From: a bacterium
GTDB taxonomy: Bacteria > UBP15 > UBA6099
DNA: 60,662 nt
Assembly (NCBI GenBank): GCA_029564595.1
Contig: JAKQPS010000032.1
Span: forward strand, 1-60,662
Direction of reading: 5' to 3'
The notes under the pieces are model-generated. The model made no database searches. It was not told the origin of the DNA and saw nothing but the letters and a program-made list of their open reading frames with translations. Made by a program: the position numbers and the translations under genes. Of the stretch, positions 2,132 through 60,284 are shown piece after piece; the first letter of the stretch is position 1, and every line of letters starts with the position of its first letter.

Positions 2132-3343
2132 ATGTTTAATAGGGTTGCGGCAATGTTAGCGGCGGTGTGCGTTGCGCTGGCGGCGGCGTCTGTTTCTGCG
2201 GAGCCGGTGGCGCGGGTCAAAGACATCAGAAGCCCGCTTCTGAATTCTCCCGCGCTGGTTTTGCGGGGCGGCGAGTTCAAGCTGGTCGTGGCGGGCGGCA
2301 AGCAGGTGGCGCGGGCGGAACTGTCGGCGACTGCAGACGCTTCGGCGAAGGTCGCTTTGGGGCTTTCCGCGGCGGTAGACGAAAACGGCAGGGCGGTTTT
2401 CTCGGCGTCCGTCCCGCAGGGCGCCGCGGCGGGGCTGTACGACCTATCGGTCTTTTTCACGGACGGCTCGTCGGACTCCCAGCCTCATGCGGTCAAGCTC
2501 TTCGACGAGTTCAAAAAAGAGTTCCATTTCATTCATTTCACTGACATGCACTTCAACACCGGGTCGCCGGAGCAGAACGAGGCGCGGGCGAAAATCATCA
2601 GGAGCATGTGCGACTCGAAACCGGAATTTATAGTGTTCGGGGGCGACCTCGGCCTAAGGCCGGCAACATACGACGCGGACTATCCTTTTGCTTATAAGCA
2701 ACTCGCCGCCCACATGACGGAGCCGGTGTTCTTGGTTCCCGGCAACCACGAGATGTATGTGGACAACAATTTCACGCCGAGCATCGACGGCCTCGACTAC
2801 TGGAACGCGACGTTCGACGTTAAAAACATGGCTTTCGACTACGGCTCTCTGCGCGTGGTCGGGATAAACAATTTTGAATGGGAAGCGAATTTCAGGGATT
2901 GGTGGAACATAGACAACGCGTTTTTCGGGACGCAGGGGCTTGCGAGGATAATGCCGGAACAGTGGAAATGGCTGGTGGCAGACCTGAAGAGCGCGAAAGG
3001 GCGCGCGTCCGACATCGTGGCGTTCATGCACGTGCCGCTGGACACGTTTGCGGGCGGCAGGATGATCGGTCTTAAGGACAGGCAGAAAATTTCCGGCCCG
3101 GACAAAGAGCGGTTCGTCGCTCTGATGAACGAGTTCGGCGTCAGCCACGTGTTCGTCGGCCACATGCACTGGAACGAGGAAAAACAGTACGGAAACATGA
3201 AACAGTTGATGACTCTCACAGCCGGAAGCGGCGGCGATAAAAAATGGGGATACCGCAAGGTTTACGTCAAAGACGGGAAGGTGACCGGCTGGGACATCGT
3301 GACGTTCGAGCCGAACGGCGCGGAACTGAAGCCCATAGACTGA
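2132..3343 (+). CDS. secreted calcineurin-like metallophosphoesterase
   Basis: 403 residues; ATG preceded by GGAGG at good spacing. A Sec signal peptide occupies about residues 1-24 (AASVSA|EP). A beta-rich domain of about 105 residues follows, then the phosphoesterase core with its metal motifs in order: D138-M-H (FTDMH), GGD, PGNHEM, MHVP and VGHMH. The family uses a dinuclear metal centre to hydrolyse phosphomono- or diesters; the substrate here is unknown. The beta-rich domain ends in AAGLYDL, matching PPGLYDL in the Tat-exported paralogue at 30236, so the two share a full architecture. The next gene downstream is another exported phosphoesterase, and the two are probably co-transcribed. 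Confidence 0.88.
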   Translation: MFNRVAAMLAAVCVALAAASVSAEPVARVKDIRSPLLNSPALVLRGGEFKLVVAGGKQVARAELSATADASAKVALGLSAAVDENGRAVFSASVPQGAAAGLYDLSVFFTDGSSDSQPHAVKLFDEFKKEFHFIHFTDMHFNTGSPEQNEARAKIIRSMCDSKPEFIVFGGDLGLRPATYDADYPFAYKQLAAHMTEPVFLVPGNHEMYVDNNFTPSIDGLDYWNATFDVKNMAFDYGSLRVVGINNFEWEANFRDWWNIDNAFFGTQGLARIMPEQWKWLVADLKSAKGRASDIVAFMHVPLDTFAGGRMIGLKDRQKISGPDKERFVALMNEFGVSHVFVGHMHWNEEKQYGNMKQLMTLTAGSGGDKKWGYRKVYVKDGKVTGWDIVTFEPNGAELKPID

Positions 3344-6169: not shown

Positions 6170-6344
6170 ATTCTCTTCAAAACGTTTCACTGGTCGTCGG
6201 GAGCGAATCGCTGCCGCGCTTCTCTCCCGACGCCCCTGTGTAAACGCTTGTTATGAAGATTCTCCCCTGTAAATCCTTTCCCAATTCCTTTTCGCGCTGT
6301 CCGCGCCGATGGCGGAGGCGAAGCCCCGGCATCGGCGCCGGCAT

Positions 6345-6394
6345 GAAAAGTTTTGAAAGGGTTTAAGGGAAAACTTTTTCAAAAGTTTTCCCTT
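6345..6394 (+). repeat. hairpin repeat, copy 2 (arms AAGGGAAAA / TTTTCCCTT)
   Basis: Flank GAAAAGTTTTGAA at 6345 is followed by a stem of AAGGGAAAA and TTTTCCCTT around the core CTTTTTCAAAAG. It is nearly identical over about 50 bases to 60480-60530. It lies in the 316-bp gap between dinB and the DUF6504-like gene, which contains nothing else recognisable. Confidence 0.75.
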
Positions 6395-6431
6395 GCCTTT
6401 CCTTTTCTCTTCTCTTCTTTTATTCCCTTAA

Positions 6432-6689
6432 CTAAGCTTCGCCGACCATGAAGCGGTCGAGCGTCCATTCCATGCTTTTCGTGCGGAGAGACAGTTCGTA
6501 GAACGAGTCGGAGTCCGAGACCACAGCGAAGTGGTAGACGCGGTATTTTCCGTCGTGTTCAGCCCAGCGGCCGTTGACGCGGCCTATTTTATGCGCCCGT
6601 CCGCGCCATTTGAACTTCCTCGGCTCGAACCTTCCGTCTCTGAACACGGCGAGCACATCGATTGTTTCGCCGACATCCTCGACCGGCAT
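6432..6689 (-). CDS. small DUF6504-like protein, probable DinB partner
   Basis: 85 residues; AGGAGG lies 10 bases before the ATG. The protein is short, basic and beta-rich (RFEPRKFKWRGRAHKIGRVNGRW, split by the motif KWRGR, then YRVYHFAVVSD and a closing MEWTLDRFMVG). It resembles the DUF6504 proteins found beside Y-family polymerase genes, whose role is not established. It sits upstream of dinB on the same strand, 316 bp away with two hairpin repeats between, so full co-transcription is uncertain. The call rests on pattern and context. Confidence 0.65.
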   Translation of the reverse strand: MPVEDVGETIDVLAVFRDGRFEPRKFKWRGRAHKIGRVNGRWAEHDGKYRVYHFAVVSDSDSFYELSLRTKSMEWTLDRFMVGEA

Positions 6690-6774
6690 AGCGCATCAGC
6701 CTCCTTCTCCGTTGAAGCCGCGCCTGCGAGCGGCGGCCTTGTTGACCCGAATTGGTGAAAAATCCGGGCTATGT

Positions 6775-6802
6775 TTGATAGTGTATCGGCCGCCTGTGAC
6801 AA
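6775..6802 (-). promoter_or_regulatory. candidate sigma-70 promoter for the DUF6504-like gene
   Basis: On the minus strand, TTGTCA (6797-6802) and TATCAA (6775-6780) are separated by 16 bases. The leader to the ATG at 6689 would be about 80 nt. Confidence 0.4.
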
Positions 6803-6863
6803 TTATGCTATACAAAAATACAGCAGTCAAGAAAATTTGCGGCGCGGAGCTGGGAGGGGGCTG

Positions 6864-7886
6864 TTATTTCACGGACATTGAGGCGTTTCTGTCCACAGGT
6901 TTCCCTTCGAGGAGCGCGGACGAGGAGCAGGCCGCGCGGCTGCTTTCGCGGATATTGCGCAGGCGGGTGGGTATCATCTCAAAGTCGAACTTGACGCCCT
7001 GCGCGGCGCGTGTGACGGTTGTTTTTCTTATCTCGTTCGGATACTGGATCAAAGCGGGGGTGGAAACGTGGGCGACGCCGTTGCGTTCGGACAGCCGGGC
7101 GGCGTGGTAGTGCCCGGAAAAGACGGCTTTCACATTCGGGCGCGAGTCGATCAGGCCGAAATACTCCTGCTGGTTGAGCACGACGTGGGTGGCGGACTTG
7201 AAGGGATAGACGATTGGGAAGTGCTGGAACAGGATGGCCGGGCGGGAGGCGTCCGCGCGCAGCCGCTCGTCGAGGAACCGCAGTTCGTCTTCCGGGAATC
7301 GGGCGGCGGCGGTCACCGCGTTGTCTATCGCTCCGCACATGGACACGAACAGGAACCCGTTCACCGTGAAAGAGTATCGCGGAGCCGGGGCGGAGAAATG
7401 AGGATTGTGCTTGTTCAGAGCCTCGACGATTTTCGGGACTTTCATTCCACCGGGGCCGACGTCGTGGTTGCCGATCGACCAGAACCACGGGACTTGCAGC
7501 CGGTTCGCCGCGCGCGCGAACGTCTCGATGAGTTTTTCGTTCGGGCTGTCTATCATGTCGCCGGTGAAGATGACGAAGTCGATGTTTTTCATCGTGTTGA
7601 CGGACGATACGGCGTCTTCGAGCAGCGCCAGCGAATCCTTGATCATCCGGCAGTGCGAGTAGTCGCGGGCAGGATTGAGATGGGTGTCCGTAAAGTGGAC
7701 GAACGAGACGGAATCCGGCGGAGCGGCGGAGGGCGCGAGAGCGGCGGCAAGCGACGTTCCGCCGAGCAGGCACGCGCCCGCTCCCAGCAGCGTCCCGGAT
7801 ATGAACTCCCGGCGCGTCATGCGCGGACACAGTTCCCTAGTGGAAGCGGCAGGCTGCCCGCTTTTTATTTTATCCTTATTCTTCAT
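6864..7886 (-). CDS. Tat-exported metallophosphoesterase
   Basis: 340 residues. A Tat signal MTRREFISGTLLGAG starts at residue 23; the start could be this ATG (7820) or the one at 7886, and neither has a strong ribosome binding site. Phosphoesterase motifs are complete: D67-T-H (FTDTH), FTGDM, IGNHD, FQHFP and SGHYH. Tat export implies folding, probably with metal loaded, in the cytoplasm before release to the periplasm. It lacks the beta-rich N-terminal domain of the 2132 and 30236 proteins, so it is a shorter branch of the family. The substrate is unknown. Confidence 0.87.
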   Translation of the reverse strand: MKNKDKIKSGQPAASTRELCPRMTRREFISGTLLGAGACLLGGTSLAAALAPSAAPPDSVSFVHFTDTHLNPARDYSHCRMIKDSLALLEDAVSSVNTMKNIDFVIFTGDMIDSPNEKLIETFARAANRLQVPWFWSIGNHDVGPGGMKVPKIVEALNKHNPHFSAPAPRYSFTVNGFLFVSMCGAIDNAVTAAARFPEDELRFLDERLRADASRPAILFQHFPIVYPFKSATHVVLNQQEYFGLIDSRPNVKAVFSGHYHAARLSERNGVAHVSTPALIQYPNEIRKTTVTRAAQGVKFDFEMIPTRLRNIRESSRAACSSSALLEGKPVDRNASMSVK

Positions 7887-8074
7887 CCCTGACGAACCGG
7901 CGACGCCGGCTTTCCTCCTGCCTTTGGATTCATAGTGTAGCGCCGGACGAATGCGGCGGCAATGGATTCCGCGCGCGCCGGGCGCTATAATTTACTCTTG
8001 CGCCGGGCGAGGCAGGCAGGAGCGGGGCGCAACACTAAAACAAGAATTCGATAATTTGACAAAAGGAGACCGAT

Positions 8075-9379
8075 ATGCCGGAAGAACTGAATTTCAGCAT
8101 CGAAACGCTTGGGCCTTGCAAAGTGGACTCGCCCATCAAGACCGCGCATTTCGAAGGCGACGACGAGCGGATTCTGTTGAACATCAGGATGTCGGAGTTG
8201 AAAGAGGAGTTAGAGCGCGCCACTGGGCCATTGAGTCTCGAAGTGGCGGGTTCGCGCCGCAAGATATACTTTGATCCCTCCAAGACCAAGGCGGGCATTG
8301 TGACCTGTGGCGGCCTGTGTCCGGGCATCAACGACGTGATCCGCGCTCTTGTGATGTCCCTCTGGTACGTTTACGGTGTGAGGAACATCTTCGGATACCA
8401 GTACGGCTATCAGGGACTTTCGCCGAAATACAAACACAAGGCAATCGATATGACGCCGGAGATGGTGAGGTCGATACACAAGGAAGGCGGCAGCATGCTG
8501 GCCACCTCCCGCGGCCCTCAGGACCCCTCCGAGATGGCCGACACTCTGGAACGGATGAACGTCAACATCCTGTTCACCATCGGCGGAGACGGCACTCAGC
8601 GCGGCACTCTCGCCATCTACGAGGAAGCAAAAAAAAGAGGCATGAAACTCGCCGTCGTCGGCATCCCGAAAACGGTGGACAACGACCTGTGTTTCATAGA
8701 GAAATCCTTCGGGTTCGAGACGGCCTTCGGCGCGGCCGCCGACGCAATAAACGGCGCGCACGAAGAGGCCAGAGGCGCGCCGAACGGCGTTTCCATAGTC
8801 AAGCTCATGGGGCGACATTCGGGCTTCATCGCCGCAATGGCCACGCTGGCGATGAGCGATGTGAACATCGTGCTCGTGCCGGAATGCCCCTTCAAGCTTG
8901 AAGGGGACGGCGGGCTGCTCAAGAATGTCGAGCGCAGGCTGCGCGAGCGCGGGCACTGCCTGCTCGTGGTCGCCGAGGGGGCAGGTCAGGAAATCATGGC
9001 CGAACAGGGCCTCAAACAGGAGCGCGACGCCTCCGGCAACGTCAGGCTCCTCGACATCGGCGTCTTCCTCAAAGATAAGTTCAATGAATACTTCAAATCG
9101 ATCAACATGGAATCGAACATAAAACTCATCGACCCCAGCTACATCATCCGCAGCGTGCCCGCGAACCCGGCGGACAGTGTTTACTGCACGCAACTTGCGC
9201 AGAACGCCGTCCACGCCGCGATGTCGGGCAAAACCGCAATGGTGGTAGGCGAGTGGAACAACAATTTCACCCACGTGCCGATTGCTATGGCGACGCTCAG
9301 GCGCAACGTGATAGACGTCAACGGCGCGTTCTGGTTGAACGTCATCGAGAGCACCGGCCAGCCGGAAAGATTCGAATGA
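8075..9379 (+). CDS. pfkA: 6-phosphofructokinase, plant/trypanosome-like ATP type
   Basis: 434 residues with AGGAG upstream of the ATG. It has the long-chain PFK signature GGLCPGIN. The donor-specifying positions are Gly173 after GGD172 (GGDGT; PPi-dependent enzymes have Asp here) and Lys199 in PKTVDND, with catalytic Asp202. The Gly/Lys combination is that of plant and trypanosomatid ATP-PFKs rather than the E. coli type (Gly/Gly) or PPi-PFKs (Asp/Lys). The predicted reaction is ATP plus fructose 6-phosphate to fructose 1,6-bisphosphate. It appears monocistronic. A TATAAT at 7986-7991 with a poor -35 may be its promoter. Confidence 0.92.
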   Translation: MPEELNFSIETLGPCKVDSPIKTAHFEGDDERILLNIRMSELKEELERATGPLSLEVAGSRRKIYFDPSKTKAGIVTCGGLCPGINDVIRALVMSLWYVYGVRNIFGYQYGYQGLSPKYKHKAIDMTPEMVRSIHKEGGSMLATSRGPQDPSEMADTLERMNVNILFTIGGDGTQRGTLAIYEEAKKRGMKLAVVGIPKTVDNDLCFIEKSFGFETAFGAAADAINGAHEEARGAPNGVSIVKLMGRHSGFIAAMATLAMSDVNIVLVPECPFKLEGDGGLLKNVERRLRERGHCLLVVAEGAGQEIMAEQGLKQERDASGNVRLLDIGVFLKDKFNEYFKSINMESNIKLIDPSYIIRSVPANPADSVYCTQLAQNAVHAAMSGKTAMVVGEWNNNFTHVPIAMATLRRNVIDVNGAFWLNVIESTGQPERFE

Positions 9380-9476
9380 GTCGAGCGGGTTTTTCCGCCT
9401 GAGAGATGAAAGATCAGGGATTATCTTTATATTAATCTTCAAAAACGGTTTGCGCCGAAGCGGAGAGAGACAAGGA

Positions 9477-10541
9477 ATGGATAATCGGAAAAGCATATAC
9501 GCGATAGCGGCGGCGATGGCGGTCGCCGCGATGGTGGCGTTCGGAGCCGCCGCGTCCGCTCAAGTGGCCCCCGGAACCGCCGTCGGCTCTTTGAAAATCG
9601 AAGCGGCATCCGGCCCGGCGATAGACCTCGGAGCTTACGGCAAGCCTTACGTTCTAGCCTTCTTCGTGCCGGGGCGAGACAAAGACGCGGCGCAACTTGC
9701 CGAAATCTCCAAACTTCTCAAGAAAAAAGAATTTGCCAAATTCGATTTTATCATGGCCACGCGGGGCGCGAACGACGCGGAAAAGAAGCGCGCCCGCGAC
9801 TTCCTTTCTTCGGGCAAATACGGAGCGCGCCTCGCATTCGACACACAGTCTCAGGCCGCCAAAAAACTCGGCGTCACCCAGTTCCCTGCAATAATCATCG
9901 TCGACGCGTCGGGCGCTGCTCGCACCACCCTCATGTCTTCCGTCACCGAAAAGATGAGGAAACGATCCTTCGAGGATTTTCTGAAAGCAGTTTCCGCCGG
10001 CGCGGCAATCCCGTACATCGACCTGCTGCCCAGAGGGTCCGGCTCAGAGCAGTCCGCCGCGCTCATAGGAAAACCCGCCCCGGCTTTCTCTCTGAAGGAC
10101 CTCTCAGGCAAGAATCACAAACTGTCCGACTACAAGGGCAAGAACCTTATTCTGATTTTCTGGAGTCCGAGCTGCGGACATTGCATGGCGGAGATGCCGA
10201 AGATACAGAGTTTTCTTGCCGCCAATTCCGCGCGATATAATTTGAAGATTTTAGGAGTGACCCGCGACTCCGGCGACAACTCCAAGAAGGACGCGCAAAA
10301 GGCCGTCAAAGAGAAGATGGTCACATATCCCAACCTGATGGACCCCGCCTCGGCGATTATGACTGACTACGGCGTCAAGTACGTGCCGTCCGTGTTTTTC
10401 TTAAACGAAAAAGGCGTAATCGTGGAGCATCTTTCCGGAGCGGCGGCGCAGTTCGACGAGGTTTACCATTCCATATTCGCCGATCCCGGAAGGCTGGGAG
10501 GAAAATCCGCAGCGCGTGGCGCGAAGGGAGCCGCCGGATGA
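9477..10541 (+). CDS. exported TlpA-like tandem thioredoxin-fold protein
   Basis: 354 residues from ATG 9477 with AAGGA just upstream (the frame opens at 9450). A Sec signal covers about residues 1-29 (AAASAQ). The first thioredoxin-like domain (about 35-175) has no CxxC; the usual site reads FFVPGRDKD. The second, about 200-340, is a TlpA/ResA-type domain with FWSPSCGHCMAEMP, redox cysteines Cys233 and Cys236. It probably acts as a periplasmic thiol reductant, with the first domain structural. Its stop overlaps the next gene's start (ATGA), so the pair is translationally coupled. Confidence 0.87.
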   Translation: MDNRKSIYAIAAAMAVAAMVAFGAAASAQVAPGTAVGSLKIEAASGPAIDLGAYGKPYVLAFFVPGRDKDAAQLAEISKLLKKKEFAKFDFIMATRGANDAEKKRARDFLSSGKYGARLAFDTQSQAAKKLGVTQFPAIIIVDASGAARTTLMSSVTEKMRKRSFEDFLKAVSAGAAIPYIDLLPRGSGSEQSAALIGKPAPAFSLKDLSGKNHKLSDYKGKNLILIFWSPSCGHCMAEMPKIQSFLAANSARYNLKILGVTRDSGDNSKKDAQKAVKEKMVTYPNLMDPASAIMTDYGVKYVPSVFFLNEKGVIVEHLSGAAAQFDEVYHSIFADPGRLGGKSAARGAKGAAG

Positions 10542-48470: not shown

Positions 48471-49400
48471 ATGAGAAATCGAATTCTCTGGGGATTTTCT
48501 CTGATGGCGCTGTCGGCAAGCATATTATGCGCGCGCGGCGCCGTCTGCGCGAAGAACCCCGGGCAATACAAATTCATAGTGAACTACGGCATGTCCTTCG
48601 GAGGCGAATCAGCCTCTAAGGTGGAAGCGCTCCTGAACAGCCTCAGCGGCGTCATCAACAAAAAAACCGGCATCAAGATTAGTATGCTGTCCGCGCGCGA
48701 TTCGGAAGAGGCTTACGAAAAACTCAAGTCGGGCGAAGCGGACTTCGGCATCATCAGGCCGATGCAGTACGCGCGCGCGGTCGAAGAGAAAGCCCCTCTG
48801 ACCCCCTTGATGAATCTGGCTATCAACAAAAAACAGGAAACTGAAATATGCGTCTATGCAAATAAAAAAACGCCCGTGAAAATGGACGCCCTGCGCGGCA
48901 AAAACGTTATGCTGCTCGAAGACAAAGAGTGGATTTACGCGCAGCAATACCTCGCGGACCAAGGTGTAGATGAAAAGCTGCCGGACTATTTTTCAAAGAC
49001 GCTCCTCGGAGACAACCCGCAGTCGGCGCTGTACACTCTGGTGTTCAAGAAAGCCGACGCCGCCATTATGACCGAAATGGCCTACGTCATGGCGGTAAAC
49101 ACGGACAAGCGATTCAACGAGATAAGCAAGATGGAGTGCATGGGAAAGTATCCGGTAGACCCGCTCGTGTTCAGGAACGACTTCAACAAGCAGGACTCCG
49201 AAAAGATAGTCAAGATGCTCGTCACCGCGCACAAAGACCCCGATTTCAAGGATGTGCATATCTATTTTGTGTCCGGGAAAGCGTTCTTCACTAAAGTGAA
49301 GCCCGACCTTTACAAGGATTTCAGGGACAGAGTCGCCAAGGCGAAAAAGAACGGGTGGCTGAAGGATTTCGAGAAATGGCGGAAAACGCAGGGGAAATGA
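48471..49400 (+). CDS. PhnD-like periplasmic solute-binding protein
   Basis: 309 residues, AAGGGA upstream, Sec signal to about residue 27 (AVCAK). The body matches phosphate/phosphonate-type binding proteins (LKSGEADFGIIRPMQYARAV, MDALRGKNVMLLEDKEW, KKADAAIMTEMAYVMA). No ABC permease or ATPase is adjacent. Instead, its stop overlaps the start of a membrane cyclase (ATGA), so it more likely delivers a ligand signal than a nutrient. Confidence 0.9.
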   Translation: MRNRILWGFSLMALSASILCARGAVCAKNPGQYKFIVNYGMSFGGESASKVEALLNSLSGVINKKTGIKISMLSARDSEEAYEKLKSGEADFGIIRPMQYARAVEEKAPLTPLMNLAINKKQETEICVYANKKTPVKMDALRGKNVMLLEDKEWIYAQQYLADQGVDEKLPDYFSKTLLGDNPQSALYTLVFKKADAAIMTEMAYVMAVNTDKRFNEISKMECMGKYPVDPLVFRNDFNKQDSEKIVKMLVTAHKDPDFKDVHIYFVSGKAFFTKVKPDLYKDFRDRVAKAKKNGWLKDFEKWRKTQGK

Positions 49401-51232
49401 GCGGCGCCACGCACTCTCCCTCCCCGTCGAGAAAAAAAAGAAGCATCGTCGTCAACCTCTCCCTTCTCGTGGTCGTTTCCATAGTGATAGCTTCCGCAGT
49501 GGCGTACATCGCGACCTCCGGGACGCAGAAGAAATTCTACGAAGAAGAAAAAGCCAGCCAGATGAAAGCGTACGCGAGCGTGATCGCCATCGCGTCCGGC
49601 AACGCCGTCGCCTCCCGCAAAAACGACACCCTGAGAATGATAGTCGAGGACGTCGTCTCGGACGAGCGGCAGATTTCGCACCTCGCAATTTTCGACAGCG
49701 GATGGAACGTCCTGTACGAAAACGGCGCGGGCGGCAAAGCCGTCTCCCTAATCGCCGAACGGCTTAAGGCGGACGAAAAAAAGATAGGCCGCTCATACTT
49801 TATCCCTGCCTTCCGGGCGGACGGCGCAAAATTCTCGCTGGCGGTCGCAAAGATAGGAATATATCTTGGCGAAGGCCCCGACAAAGAGCACGTCTCCGGA
49901 TACGTCGCGCTGACATACAGGCCGAAGCCGCTGCTCGAACTTGAGCGCGCGCGCCAGATTGAAATCCTCGGCGAAAGCGTCGCGAAAACCGTCCGCTCCC
50001 TCATCGACCGGTTCATCTTCTCGGAAGCCAAGGAGATTCTCGTCGAGTTGCGGAAAAACAATCCGGATATCGTTTTCTGCTACGTAATCGATCCTGACAG
50101 CTACGTGATGATACACCCGGACGAGGAGATGGAAGGCCGGGAGTTGGACGACCCGGAAACGAAAGCGGCGCAGCGGGTGGACTCCCGGCGCAAAGTCATC
50201 ATGCGCGAGCGAGTGGACGACGAATGGGGCAGAATAGTCGACAGTTCGTTCCTCATCGAGAGCGACGGAATGAAAACGGGGGTTCTGCGCGTCGGGTACT
50301 CGCTGGAGCGGCTGTACGGCAGGGCGGCGCGCGCCCGCGCTATAGCCGCCGCCATCGTGTTCGCCTTCCTCTGCGCCGCCGTCGCCGCCTCCGTCGCCGT
50401 CTCCCGCAGGTTCGCCAAACCCATCCTCTATCTGGCCGACACCGCCCGCGAGATAGGACGCGGCAATCTTGACTTGAACGTCGCCGTCTCCACCGGCGGA
50501 CTCGAAATTCAGGAGCTTGCAGGCTCATTCAACGAGATGATTAGAGGCATCAAGGAAAAACAGCAGATAAAGGACACATTCTCCCGCTACGTATCACGTC
50601 AGGTGGCCGACGAACTTCTCCGCGACATGGACAACATTTCCCTCGGCGGCGAAACAAAGGACGTCACCATCCTGTTCTCTGATATCAGAGGTTTCACAAC
50701 CATATCCGAGAAACTCCCCGCAGACCTCGTGGTCGGCCTTCTCAACGAATATTTTAACTCGATGGTGGACGTCGTTTTCGAGTACGAAGGCACTCTCGAC
50801 AAGTTCATAGGCGACGCGATAATGGCGATCTACGGCTCCCCGATTAAACACCCCGACGACCCCATGCGCGCGGTCAAATCCGCCCTTAAAATGAAACGTA
50901 AACTGGACGAACTGAACGAGAAGTGGATAAACGAGGACGGCCTCAACCCCATCAAAATCGGCATCGGCATCCACACCGGCCCGGTGGTAGCAGGCAATAT
51001 CGGCCACTCGCAAAGACTCGAATACACCGTCATCGGCGACAACGTAAATCTTGCCTCCCGGCTCGAAAGCCTCACCAAGCAGTACCACATCCCAATCGTC
51101 ATCAGCGGCAGCACTTATGAACTTGTCAAAGACTCAGTCAATGCAAGACACATCGACTCCGTCACCGTAAAAGGAAAATCCAAACCCGTTGAAGTTTATG
51201 AGCTTCTGGGATTAATCGATCCTGAATTCTGA
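49397..51232 (+). CDS. membrane class III nucleotide cyclase with sensor and HAMP
   Basis: 611 residues from ATG 49397, overlapping the upstream stop; earlier in-frame starts exist. TM1 near 17-40, extracytoplasmic sensor to about 305, TM2 near 310-335, HAMP near 336-390, cyclase domain from about 420. Catalytic set complete: both metal Asp (FSDIRGFT, FIGDAIMA), Lys in LDKFIGD, EYTVIGD, Asn and Arg in DNVNLASRLES, and the VKGKSK region. Lys and Thr at the specificity positions favour adenylate cyclase. The upstream binding protein is its likely ligand module. Confidence 0.93.
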   Translation: MSGATHSPSPSRKKRSIVVNLSLLVVVSIVIASAVAYIATSGTQKKFYEEEKASQMKAYASVIAIASGNAVASRKNDTLRMIVEDVVSDERQISHLAIFDSGWNVLYENGAGGKAVSLIAERLKADEKKIGRSYFIPAFRADGAKFSLAVAKIGIYLGEGPDKEHVSGYVALTYRPKPLLELERARQIEILGESVAKTVRSLIDRFIFSEAKEILVELRKNNPDIVFCYVIDPDSYVMIHPDEEMEGRELDDPETKAAQRVDSRRKVIMRERVDDEWGRIVDSSFLIESDGMKTGVLRVGYSLERLYGRAARARAIAAAIVFAFLCAAVAASVAVSRRFAKPILYLADTAREIGRGNLDLNVAVSTGGLEIQELAGSFNEMIRGIKEKQQIKDTFSRYVSRQVADELLRDMDNISLGGETKDVTILFSDIRGFTTISEKLPADLVVGLLNEYFNSMVDVVFEYEGTLDKFIGDAIMAIYGSPIKHPDDPMRAVKSALKMKRKLDELNEKWINEDGLNPIKIGIGIHTGPVVAGNIGHSQRLEYTVIGDNVNLASRLESLTKQYHIPIVISGSTYELVKDSVNARHIDSVTVKGKSKPVEVYELLGLIDPEF

Positions 51233-56380: not shown

Positions 56381-57895
56381 ATGACAGAGGCAATTCAGAA
56401 GCGGCGAATTATCCCGGACAGAATGAAATGGGTTATTATTATTGGAGAACTCTTTTTAATATATGCTCTTGTTCTAATTACAACCTATCTGGATGCGCCC
56501 TTCCACAATCTTCTTCGCTTTCTTGTGCTTTTTCCGATGTTTCACGCCGGCGCGACTTTTGGGCACAAGGGCGGTTTTCTCGCCAGCCTTCTGGCCATAT
56601 TCCTATTTGTCCCGATCATCAAATATGACACTCCTGAAGCAATGTACCATTTCCCGGTGCCGGCATCAATGTTGCTGTTCACGCTTTTCGCCTTGTTCGG
56701 AATTCTGGTTGGGGGCACAGTAGGCGAAGCAAGGAAATCCCGCGAATATCTCGAAACAATGTCTAAAGTTCTTCTGGAAATATTCAGAGAGCCGGATGAG
56801 CGTTCAATAATCCGGCGTTCGTGCATAGAGGCGGCGGCCATAACAGGAGCCGCCGGAGGCGCATTCCTTCTTATCGGAGACGAAGAACAAGACGCTGCTG
56901 AATGGCGTATTCTTGATATGTCCGCGGACGACAATAACAACGAGCCAACGCCCGGGTTGGCCCCCGACAACATTTTAGCGCGTTGCGCCATGCGGAATAT
57001 GTCCTTTATAACAAACAGCGCGGGAAATGATGAGAGGGTGACCCTCGGTCCCCGCGCCGCCGCAGTAAGGTCAATAATAGCTGTGCCGGTTTCTTTCGAA
57101 CAAACAGTTTACGGCGCATTCGTTGTCGTCAAAGGAGAAAACAGAGATAACTTTGCTGAAAAAGAGCTTTCCATCTTAAAAACCATAGCCGAAACCGCCG
57201 GAGGGGCGATACATAACTTGAGACAGGAAAGAAAACGGCAGGAAGAAAAACTCCGCGAAAAACAAATGCGAGACCTGTTCTCAAGATACAGCGCCCCGGC
57301 AATAGTCGACTATGTGCTTGAACATCCCGATCTGCTGTCCAGCCGCCGGCAGGAAGTGACTGTGCTGGTTTCGGACATAAGGGGTTTCACTGCGTTTTCG
57401 GAAACAACCGCGCCTGAAGAAGTCGTCGCCCAATTGAACGAGTACTTCACCGCTATGGTTGACGTCATCTTCGAGAATAATGGCATAATAGACAAATTCA
57501 TAGGCGACTGCATAATCGCATATTGGGGAGCTCCGGCCCCCGACGCGCAACACTCCACAAACGCCATACGGGCCGCGTCAGCCATGTCTCGCGCTCTGGA
57601 CAACCTCAACATTGTTTGGGCGCGTCGAGGGCTGAGGCCTTTTTCGTCCGGCATTGCCATTCATACGTGCGATGTGTTGATGGGCAATATCGGCGACGAC
57701 AGAAAACTGGCGTTCACTATTATGGGCGATGAAGTGGATAAAGCAATTAGAATGGAATCAGCCACAAAAGCGCTTGGCGCAAAAATAATCGTATCGGAAA
57801 CGGCGGCGCGAGCGTCCGGCTTCAGTCTGTCGCCTCTTGGCGATGCTCCGGCTGAATTAGGCGGCCTTTTCACTTTCGCCGGAGATGAATTATGA
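56381..57895 (+). CDS. cyclase subunit A: 4-TM, GAF, class III cyclase domain lacking catalytic Asn (C1-like)
   Basis: 504 residues. Four membrane segments (about 14-35, 45-62, 66-82, 90-112), then a GAF domain (about 130-290), then the cyclase domain (about 325-504). The metal residues are intact: Asp332 (VSDIRGFT) and Asp376 (IGDCIIA), as is Lys372. But the transition-state Asn is Asp453 (GDEVDKAIRMES; Arg457 kept), and the VKGK-type phosphate-contact segment is replaced by LGGLFTFAG. Alone it should not form a full homodimeric site. It matches the metal-binding C1 half of mammalian adenylyl cyclase. Its stop overlaps the next start (ATGA). Confidence 0.9.
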   Translation: MTEAIQKRRIIPDRMKWVIIIGELFLIYALVLITTYLDAPFHNLLRFLVLFPMFHAGATFGHKGGFLASLLAIFLFVPIIKYDTPEAMYHFPVPASMLLFTLFALFGILVGGTVGEARKSREYLETMSKVLLEIFREPDERSIIRRSCIEAAAITGAAGGAFLLIGDEEQDAAEWRILDMSADDNNNEPTPGLAPDNILARCAMRNMSFITNSAGNDERVTLGPRAAAVRSIIAVPVSFEQTVYGAFVVVKGENRDNFAEKELSILKTIAETAGGAIHNLRQERKRQEEKLREKQMRDLFSRYSAPAIVDYVLEHPDLLSSRRQEVTVLVSDIRGFTAFSETTAPEEVVAQLNEYFTAMVDVIFENNGIIDKFIGDCIIAYWGAPAPDAQHSTNAIRAASAMSRALDNLNIVWARRGLRPFSSGIAIHTCDVLMGNIGDDRKLAFTIMGDEVDKAIRMESATKALGAKIIVSETAARASGFSLSPLGDAPAELGGLFTFAGDEL

Positions 57896-58827
57896 AAATA
57901 GTCAGCGAAACAATAGGAAGCAAATTAGTCCAGCGCCCGGATTTTAAGGACAGCGATATGACCGGCATTATTGCGGACATAAGCATTAATAGCGATTGGC
58001 GCGCGGAGTGGAAAGCGCCGGGCATATTCAGCCGGCCATTGATGCTTGTCGCCGCCGCTGTTCTTTGCGTCGCGGGCATAATCGCGGGAGTTTTTTCCAT
58101 TCTTTATGCAAAAAACATTATCAGCGTCACAGTAAAAGACTGCCTCGTAGGCTCTTATATCTTCATCATGTACGGAAGCGCCCTTCTCCTTTCCGGAAAG
58201 CTCGACAGGAAACGCGCGGCGGCGCTGACACTCAGCGTGATTGCTTTTCAAGCGTGGAACACGCTGTTTTTTCACACGCCGCATTTGGCGGTTTTTGTAA
58301 TCGTTTTGGGTCTCTGGCTTCCTTTCTACTGGCTATGGACCGATCCTGAATCGATGAAGGAAATTGGACTCGTGAAAACCGGCATAGCGATGAACCTTCT
58401 GGCCGGCATAGCGATGTCCGCCGCGTTTGTTTCATACATCGCATGGGGAATGGCTAATTTCGGCTTCTCATTCGAGATTGAGATATGGAGACTGATAGTT
58501 AATTCCGCGCAGGTTCTTCCCATGTTCCTTGCAATATTCGCCTTTTTTTTCATGGTCTGGGAAAAACTTAGATTGACCGGTCTGTCATCCATGTCCATGC
58601 TTGTGGCTCTCGTCATTTTATCGGCGTCCTTAAACGCGCCTAATTTCATTCTTTTCGGCGCAGCCTCAGACACGCCGTTTGTCATTACGCTCGCGGGCTT
58701 CACCGCGATTACAGTCATCATGGCTTTGACTACATCCGTCGTCTTCTCGACATTTAGAAGCGCTCTTCCTGCCGCGTGCCTTTTTACGGCTATGTCCGCG
58801 CTTCTTTTTATGGCCGGCCTTGTATGA
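57892..58827 (+). CDS. polytopic membrane protein between the two cyclase genes
   Basis: 311 residues, about eight membrane segments after a 45-residue soluble N-terminus. ATG overlaps the stop of cyclase A, and its own TGA overlaps the ATG of cyclase B. I do not recognise the family; the segments (for example LMLVAAAVLCVAGIIAGVFS) resemble sensor or receptor-type 7-8-TM bundles. The overlaps imply co-production with both cyclases, so a membrane partner or sensor is inferred. Confidence 0.85.
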   Translation: MKIVSETIGSKLVQRPDFKDSDMTGIIADISINSDWRAEWKAPGIFSRPLMLVAAAVLCVAGIIAGVFSILYAKNIISVTVKDCLVGSYIFIMYGSALLLSGKLDRKRAAALTLSVIAFQAWNTLFFHTPHLAVFVIVLGLWLPFYWLWTDPESMKEIGLVKTGIAMNLLAGIAMSAAFVSYIAWGMANFGFSFEIEIWRLIVNSAQVLPMFLAIFAFFFMVWEKLRLTGLSSMSMLVALVILSASLNAPNFILFGAASDTPFVITLAGFTAITVIMALTTSVVFSTFRSALPAACLFTAMSALLFMAGLV

Positions 58828-60284
58828 AAAAGACTGCGATTCTTACAACATTGTCTTTCATTTCACTTGCGATTATTCATGTCGCGCATCATTTCGAATG
58901 GGAGCTTTTCGGCTGGTCGCGCCTGACCATAGCGGCGCCTGTCATTTACGCCGCCTACAACTTCCGCCGCTCGAAGGCAATACCCGCGGCAGCAATCATT
59001 GTCTTGGCCCAAACGCCGCTTGCCATTAGCAAATACGCGGCGCAAAAACCATTTTGCGCTTCGGAAATCCTGATTGTGGGAACTATCACTGCGGTCATCA
59101 GCGTGATTATGGGACGCGTTTTCCGCAAAGAAAAGGAAAATTCCGAAACCATTAAACAGACCTATTCTCTGATCGGATCGATACGAAAGAGCATTGAAGA
59201 GGACAGCCTTCTTTCACGGCTTGAAGACATTTTCGCCGTAAAAGGCAAATCCGTCGAGGCGACGACTTATCTTATTAGAGATGACGGCGCGCTCGTCGCG
59301 AGAGCGAATCCCGGCGGCGAACCGTTCCCGCCGTCGCACCTTTACTACGATATTGCCGAAAAAAACGAAATGGTTTTGATTCCCAAGCCTTCGTTGGACC
59401 ATCGGTTGAAAGGCGTCGAACATCTGAAAAGCCTTGATTCAATTTCCCAGCTTGCTGTTTTTCCAATTTTTTATGGCGGTCGCGCGCGAGGGCTTATCTC
59501 GGTTGCGAATCATGACACAGAGAAATTTGACAGAGAAAACATCGCTTATTTCGCGGCAATGAAACAAGCGGTCGAAAGCGCTCTCGACCTAGGAGTTAAG
59601 CTTCGCGAAAGAATAAATCATGAAATGCGCCGACATAAGATGAAAACCGCCTTTTCCTCCTACCTTTCGCAGCCGGTTGCGGAGGAAATCCTCAAAAGTC
59701 CCGGCATTTCACTCCCCGGAGGAGAGGTCCGCGATGTGACAGTCATGTTCGTGGAAGCGACCAGCTTCAGAGAACTTACGAGAGAAATCACCCCGGAAGA
59801 AGCCTTGTCGCGGCTTAATGTGTTTTTTTCTGTCGCGCTCGACACAATATTCGAATATGAAGGAACCGTCGATAAATATATCGGCGAAAGCGTGATGGCC
59901 TTCTGGGGAGCCCCTTTGCCCTTGATCGACAAAGAGGAGCGCGCCGTGAATTGCGCGCTGACGCTCTTGGATAGAGTTCGGAAACTGAACAGCGATTGGG
60001 GCGCTCAAGGCAGACAATCATTTAACATAAGCATCGGCGTTAACTCCGGCCCTGTGGTTGCAGGCAACATCGGCAGCGTCCGCCGAATGGAATACACTGT
60101 CATCGGAGACACCGTAAATGTCGCCGCGCGTATTAAATCATTGTCTTCCGATAAAGGCTTCCCTGTCCTCGTCAGCGACAACACTTTCGAGAAAACCAAA
60201 ACAAAGTTTCAGTTTGAAGAAAAGCTCTGTGTTTCGGTAAAGGGAAAAACCAAGGAACTAATAGTTTATAAGATAAAAACATAG
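58824..60284 (+). CDS. cyclase subunit B: 4-TM, GAF, class III cyclase domain with Glu at both metal sites (C2-like)
   Basis: 486 residues from ATG 58824, overlapping the upstream stop. Four N-terminal membrane segments, a GAF domain (about 130-270), then the cyclase domain (about 305-486). Both metal Asp are Glu: Glu311 (FVEATSFR) and Glu355 (IGESVMA). The other residues stay: Lys351, Thr in MEYTVIGD, Asn432 and Arg436 (GDTVNVAARIK), and Lys473 in the VKGK segment. This is the C2-like pattern, complementary to subunit A, with the same domain plan. Confidence 0.9.
   Translation: MKKTAILTTLSFISLAIIHVAHHFEWELFGWSRLTIAAPVIYAAYNFRRSKAIPAAAIIVLAQTPLAISKYAAQKPFCASEILIVGTITAVISVIMGRVFRKEKENSETIKQTYSLIGSIRKSIEEDSLLSRLEDIFAVKGKSVEATTYLIRDDGALVARANPGGEPFPPSHLYYDIAEKNEMVLIPKPSLDHRLKGVEHLKSLDSISQLAVFPIFYGGRARGLISVANHDTEKFDRENIAYFAAMKQAVESALDLGVKLRERINHEMRRHKMKTAFSSYLSQPVAEEILKSPGISLPGGEVRDVTVMFVEATSFRELTREITPEEALSRLNVFFSVALDTIFEYEGTVDKYIGESVMAFWGAPLPLIDKEERAVNCALTLLDRVRKLNSDWGAQGRQSFNISIGVNSGPVVAGNIGSVRRMEYTVIGDTVNVAARIKSLSSDKGFPVLVSDNTFEKTKTKFQFEEKLCVSVKGKTKELIVYKIKT

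Follow-up and report, generated by a model that had tools for sequence, protein, structure and literature searches.

The catalytic sites of class III nucleotide cyclases form between two domains, one of which contributes the metal-binding Asp residues while the other contributes the Asn, Arg, Lys and purine-binding residues. In the mammalian transmembrane adenylate cyclases (class IIIa), these roles are split between the C1 and C2 domains of a single fused chain, which has one active and one degenerate site. The soluble guanylate cyclases, which are eukaryotic heterodimers, have alpha and beta subunits encoded by separate genes and a single asymmetric class III site. In bacteria, Rv1625c/Cya of Mycobacterium tuberculosis is a natural homodimer with two equal sites. 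Complementation has been engineered in this enzyme: the inactive D300A and R376A variants restore each other and yield an active dimer (PMC4821796). According to reviews, class III cyclases in bacteria homodimerise, no fused dimer is known among them, and the change to unlike halves took place in early eukaryotes (PMC9552081; PMC4821796). No report of a natural bacterial complementary cyclase pair, whether as a heterodimer or as pseudo-cyclases, was found in the literature searched, a search from whose scope most subscription papers were excluded.

The locus considered here occupies positions 56381-60284 of the window, by which is meant the whole 60,662-nucleotide stretch of DNA that was analysed. 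Three genes, A, M and B, are arranged in that order, head to tail on the same (+) strand (Table 1). By sequence logic, A and B resemble C1 and C2 in dividing the metal Asp residues from Asn, Arg and Lys, which would leave one active and one degenerate site. However, A and B are separate open reading frames with M between them, the purine-binding pair is the Lys/Thr of class IIIb rather than Lys/Asp, a short membrane region plus a GAF domain replaces the two six-helix bundles, and the additional membrane proteins M and X have no counterpart in the mammalian system. The soluble guanylate cyclases provide a second parallel, with separate genes and one asymmetric site, as is proposed for A/B, but A/B has ATP-type purine residues and is membrane-bound, bacterial and of independent origin. 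An H-NOX domain, as in soluble guanylate cyclases, was not found in A or B, for which the Pfam scan gives GAF and cyclase domains only. The catalytic fold is common to A/B, Rv1625c and other bacterial class III cyclases, although the losses in A and B are natural and fixed. A/B probably works in the manner of C1/C2 enzymes but is distinct from them in its separate genes, class IIIb residues, different sensor domains and independent origin; its activity is inferred.

Table 1. Features of the A-M-B locus, with positions numbered along the window.
Feature	Position	Strand	Remarks
Subunit A, 504 aa	56381..57895	+	ATG 56381; membrane helices at the N-terminus, then a GAF domain and a C1-like class III cyclase domain
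GAF domain of A, residues 139-278	56795..57214	+	Pfam GAF_2, 1.1e-13
Class III cyclase domain of A, residues 321-478	57341..57814	+	Pfam Guanylate_cyc, 1e-17
A D332, metal Asp 1, retained	57374..57376	+	Alignment; invariant across A family
A D376, metal Asp 2, retained	57506..57508	+	Alignment; invariant across A family
A D453 at catalytic Asn position	57737..57739	+	Alignment; Asp/Glu in 12/12 A
A R457, transition-state Arg, retained in window	57749..57751	+	Alignment; R, K, S, E or A in A family
A/M ATGA overlap (stop of A, start of M)	57892..57895	+	
M, polytopic membrane protein, 311 aa	57892..58827	+	
M/B ATGA overlap (stop of M, start of B)	58824..58827	+	
Subunit B, 486 aa from ATG 58824 (502 aa from GTG 58776)	58824..60284	+	C2-like cyclase
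Class III cyclase domain of B	59727..60275	+	PF00211, 3.6e-23
B E311 at metal Asp 1 position	59754..59756	+	Alignment; Glu in 11/11 B
B K351, purine-binding Lys, retained	59874..59876	+	Alignment
B E355 at metal Asp 2 position	59886..59888	+	Alignment; window's B only, Asp in 10/11
B T425, purine-binding Thr (class IIIb signature), retained	60096..60098	+	Alignment
B N432, catalytic Asn	60117..60119	+	Alignment; 11/11 B
B R436, transition-state Arg	60129..60131	+	Alignment; 11/11 B
B K473, phosphate-contact Lys in VKGK	60240..60242	+	Alignment; Lys 10/11, Arg 1/11 B

Gene order, domain architecture and origin

Translational coupling is likely at the A/M overlap, and since M and B overlap in the same way, the three genes look like a single translationally coupled operon. 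M itself had gone unmentioned in a preliminary description of this locus. Between the 3' end of B and the end of the contig (60284-60662), the window is T-rich with short repeats, and no further operon gene is visible there.

Both cyclase domains score above the curated PF00211 cut-off of 21.9 bits (64.8 bits for A and 82.6 bits for B), and the structure model of B matches solved class III cyclases. The architecture of B comprises approximately four membrane helices, a GAF-like domain and the class III cyclase domain, with only a weak Pfam signal for the GAF-like domain (2e-7 at best among family members). The N-termini of A and B likewise give weak Pfam matches in some members (MASE6, 8e-4; MASE1, 3e-4; DUF4118, 0.038).

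The profiles of A and B show homology over their full length (E 1.8e-61). The simplest origin for the pair is therefore that a membrane-GAF-cyclase protein was duplicated and that the two copies then lost complementary residues. A cyclase-domain tree built without the seven catalytic columns places all A in one clade and all B in another (100/100 for each). Support for A and B as closest relatives among the cyclases is only moderate, and the group in question takes in two long-branched canonical rows.

Catalytic residues and their conservation

Residues were assigned by alignment of A and B with canonical cyclases. The preliminary description had read A as keeping D332 and D376, with the catalytic Asn replaced by D453 and the phosphate-contact Lys segment absent, and B as having E311 and E355 at the metal positions while keeping K351, N432, R436 and K473; the alignment agrees with each of these calls, B being numbered from ATG 58824. 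The C-terminus of A lacks the VKGK segment and its phosphate-contact Lys. The complete set of metal Asp, Asn, Arg and Lys residues is present in A and B together and in neither chain by itself. A homodimer would need this full set in each chain, which fails for A (no Asn or Lys) and for B (no metal Asp 1). The purine-binding Lys and Thr by which class IIIb is recognized are found in all readable A and B, and this pair points to ATP as the substrate, an inference made from residue identity alone.

Searches covered the genus and the order, and 386 genomes in total. They yielded 12 A and 11 B homologues in six genomes of one bacterial order, with the A profile exceeding 740 bits at 11 places as opposed to approximately 236 bits or less for everything else in the 386 genomes. 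The preliminary description had suggested a search for the same gene order elsewhere, and there are other clusters in G000 (C95 and C108), G001 (C2 and C8), G002 (C1), G003 (C275) and G004 (two on C1), along with clusters cut by contig ends (G003 C327, G004 C226, G004 C49 and G006 C506). Because G004 C226 and C49 may be opposite ends of one cluster, the other clusters, complete or contig-cut, number eleven or twelve, all in these six genomes. Homologues appearing singly would have counted against the earlier proposal, and no solitary A or B was found in the searched genomes except at contig ends. A scan of the genome contigs with A gave three distant cyclases only and no new pair.

A coupled and conserved loss of Asn in A and of Asp in B, which had been anticipated as support for complementarity, is seen across the family, the loss in B being that at metal site 1. 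All 12 A have lost Asn (to Asp or Glu) as well as Lys, and both metal Asp residues are retained in the 11 members readable at those columns. Every one of the 11 B has Glu at metal site 1 and retains Asn and Arg. The pair thus shows a C1/C2-type complementary division that is conserved in homologues (12 A and 11 B). Emphasis had also been placed on Glu at both metal sites of B. That at site 1 holds as a family trait, whereas that at site 2 (E355) is not conserved and was overrated: the window's B is the most changed member, and since it alone has Glu at site 2, this change is lineage-specific and probably recent. A role for E355 in a general mechanism can be ruled out on the same grounds. Canonical residues (Asp, Asp, Asn, Arg) are present in other cyclases that these genomes encode, among them that at 49355-51232, and in approximately 50 cyclases from other genomes (D, D, N and R, with one exception in which His replaces Arg).

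In close pairs, dN/dS for A, X, M and B ranges from 0.07 to 0.46 and is mostly near 0.1. These genes are therefore under purifying selection, and A and B are not decaying. Sequence error or a lone pseudogene is ruled out by the three paralogous clusters in the genome and by family dN/dS values well below 1, and chance decay is ruled out by the clade-wide complementary pattern. Distances among A and among B agree (r 0.98; 0/5000 permutations), and agreement across A, B and M (r 0.95-0.99) is what joint inheritance of an operon would produce. The highest dN/dS, 0.46, belongs to the B of the G003 C275 pair. At this locus (L049), there is a stop or frameshift near the N-terminus in both A and B (near 3059-3146 and 6207-6417), which could reflect either recent damage or misassembly, the genome being fragmented.

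A heterodimeric reading and its alternatives

Most probably, A and B pair at the membrane as the two unlike subunits of a class IIIb adenylate cyclase, in which one site is active and the other dead, although both interaction and activity are inferred. The complete site would lie at the A-B interface, where A would supply the metals and B the remaining residues for conversion of ATP to cAMP. The mirror site would be dead, with Glu from B at the metal positions and, from A, Asp in place of Asn and no Lys; it may be free to decay further or to take up another molecule, perhaps a regulator, any such ligand being inferred. In both subunits, the membrane helices at the N-terminus and the GAF domain could carry signals to the active site. 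M is a probable further input, as is X where present. In such an arrangement, cAMP output would depend on the pairing of two different sensor chains.

It may instead be that B is an active homodimer, with Glu (or Glu and Asp) at its metal sites, and that A, itself without catalytic activity, serves to regulate B as its partner. Glu can bind Mg, and B retains all non-metal catalytic residues; in addition, 10 of the 11 B have metal Asp 2. Given that the replacement of Asp by Glu is conservative, B homodimers might indeed keep some activity. As an account of the whole system, however, this is improbable: the metal Asp residues would be needless in a pure regulator, yet both persist in 11/11 readable A despite paralogue identities of only 34-53%. 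The same logic is also followed by a CHASE2 pair (discussed below), whose B-like member has Met/Leu and Ala/Ser/His at these positions and should not bind metal. The lack of a complete residue set in either subunit would also be compatible with A and B as separate pseudo-cyclases, serving as nucleotide sensors or scaffolds and making no cyclic nucleotide. This is very hard to reconcile with two independent pairs that keep exactly complementary residues under purifying selection; neither random decay nor a non-catalytic role would preserve opposite halves.

With three A and three B encoded in the window's genome, alongside several class III cyclases of canonical type, cross-pairing among the A and B subunits, or of A with a canonical cyclase, could occur. 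A might even pair mainly with such partners (the B of another cluster, or a canonical enzyme such as the Cache-HAMP cyclase at 49355-51232), in which case the functional unit would be a network. This too is unlikely, as A and B genes are linked without exception where flanks are readable, and the distances of A, B and M match. If the A-B heterodimer is real, complementary losses have become fixed in a pair that occurs naturally in bacteria, and have done so twice in one order, which would show that asymmetry can arise there without gene fusion. It would also offer a tractable model close to a question left open in review, namely the benefit of an unlike paired enzyme over a homodimer, such as more regulatory inputs or a non-catalytic pocket.

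A second complementary pair and the membrane proteins

Two neighbouring cyclases on G000 C139 (L045:3764-6637 and 6682-9975) combine CHASE2 and cyclase domains, as CHASE2 class III cyclases do, and form a second complementary pair in the order. The first, B-like member has Met/Leu and Ala/Ser/His at the two metal Asp positions and retains Asn and Arg. In the second, both metal Asp residues are retained, Asn is replaced by Asp or Glu, and Arg is replaced by His. This division is present in 7/7 genomes of the order (also L050, L051, L087, L088, L089 and L035/L039). The two members are sister clades (97/95) that are distant from A and B in the tree, and the closest CHASE2 relatives outside the order, among those checked, have canonical residues. 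Because of this distance and these canonical relatives, complementary division appears to have evolved twice in the order, insofar as sequences can indicate.

The structure model of M (pLDDT 81) shows approximately nine helices. All other readable clusters have an additional gene between A and M that encodes another membrane protein, X (for example, L043:4421-5272); the window's locus is the sole complete one without it. X is homologous to M (profile E 3.5e-10). Both are confined to A/B loci, with 12 matches to M in 386 genomes and 11 matches to X in 98 genomes. No convincing Pfam family was found for M or X, and a fold search of the M model against the PDB gave no match at E <= 0.001. A relationship to CAAX proteases of the Rce1 type was considered and rejected: there is no Pfam match, and the M model meets Rce1 only at rank 28 (E 1.3). 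M and X represent two new membrane protein families linked to cyclase genes.

With the gene order A-X-M-B, each cyclase subunit could have a membrane partner of its own, although this is a guess. A broader and decidedly tentative proposal is that adenylate cyclases able to work only as heterodimers arose on at least two occasions in this bacterial order, and that in A-X-M-B loci each half has a dedicated polytopic partner. cAMP would then be made only when two membrane inputs meet, and the enzyme would be a coincidence detector, similar to C1/C2 except that its subunits are separate and its dead site is free. This remains more doubtful than not.

The genome contains ten matches to cNMP-binding domains, which are possible cAMP receivers. 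Elsewhere in the window, the canonical cyclase at 49355-51232 is of the sCache-HAMP class III type, and its gene overlaps that of a phosphonate-type periplasmic binding protein (48471-49400); together, these two are possibly a ligand-sensing cyclase unit.
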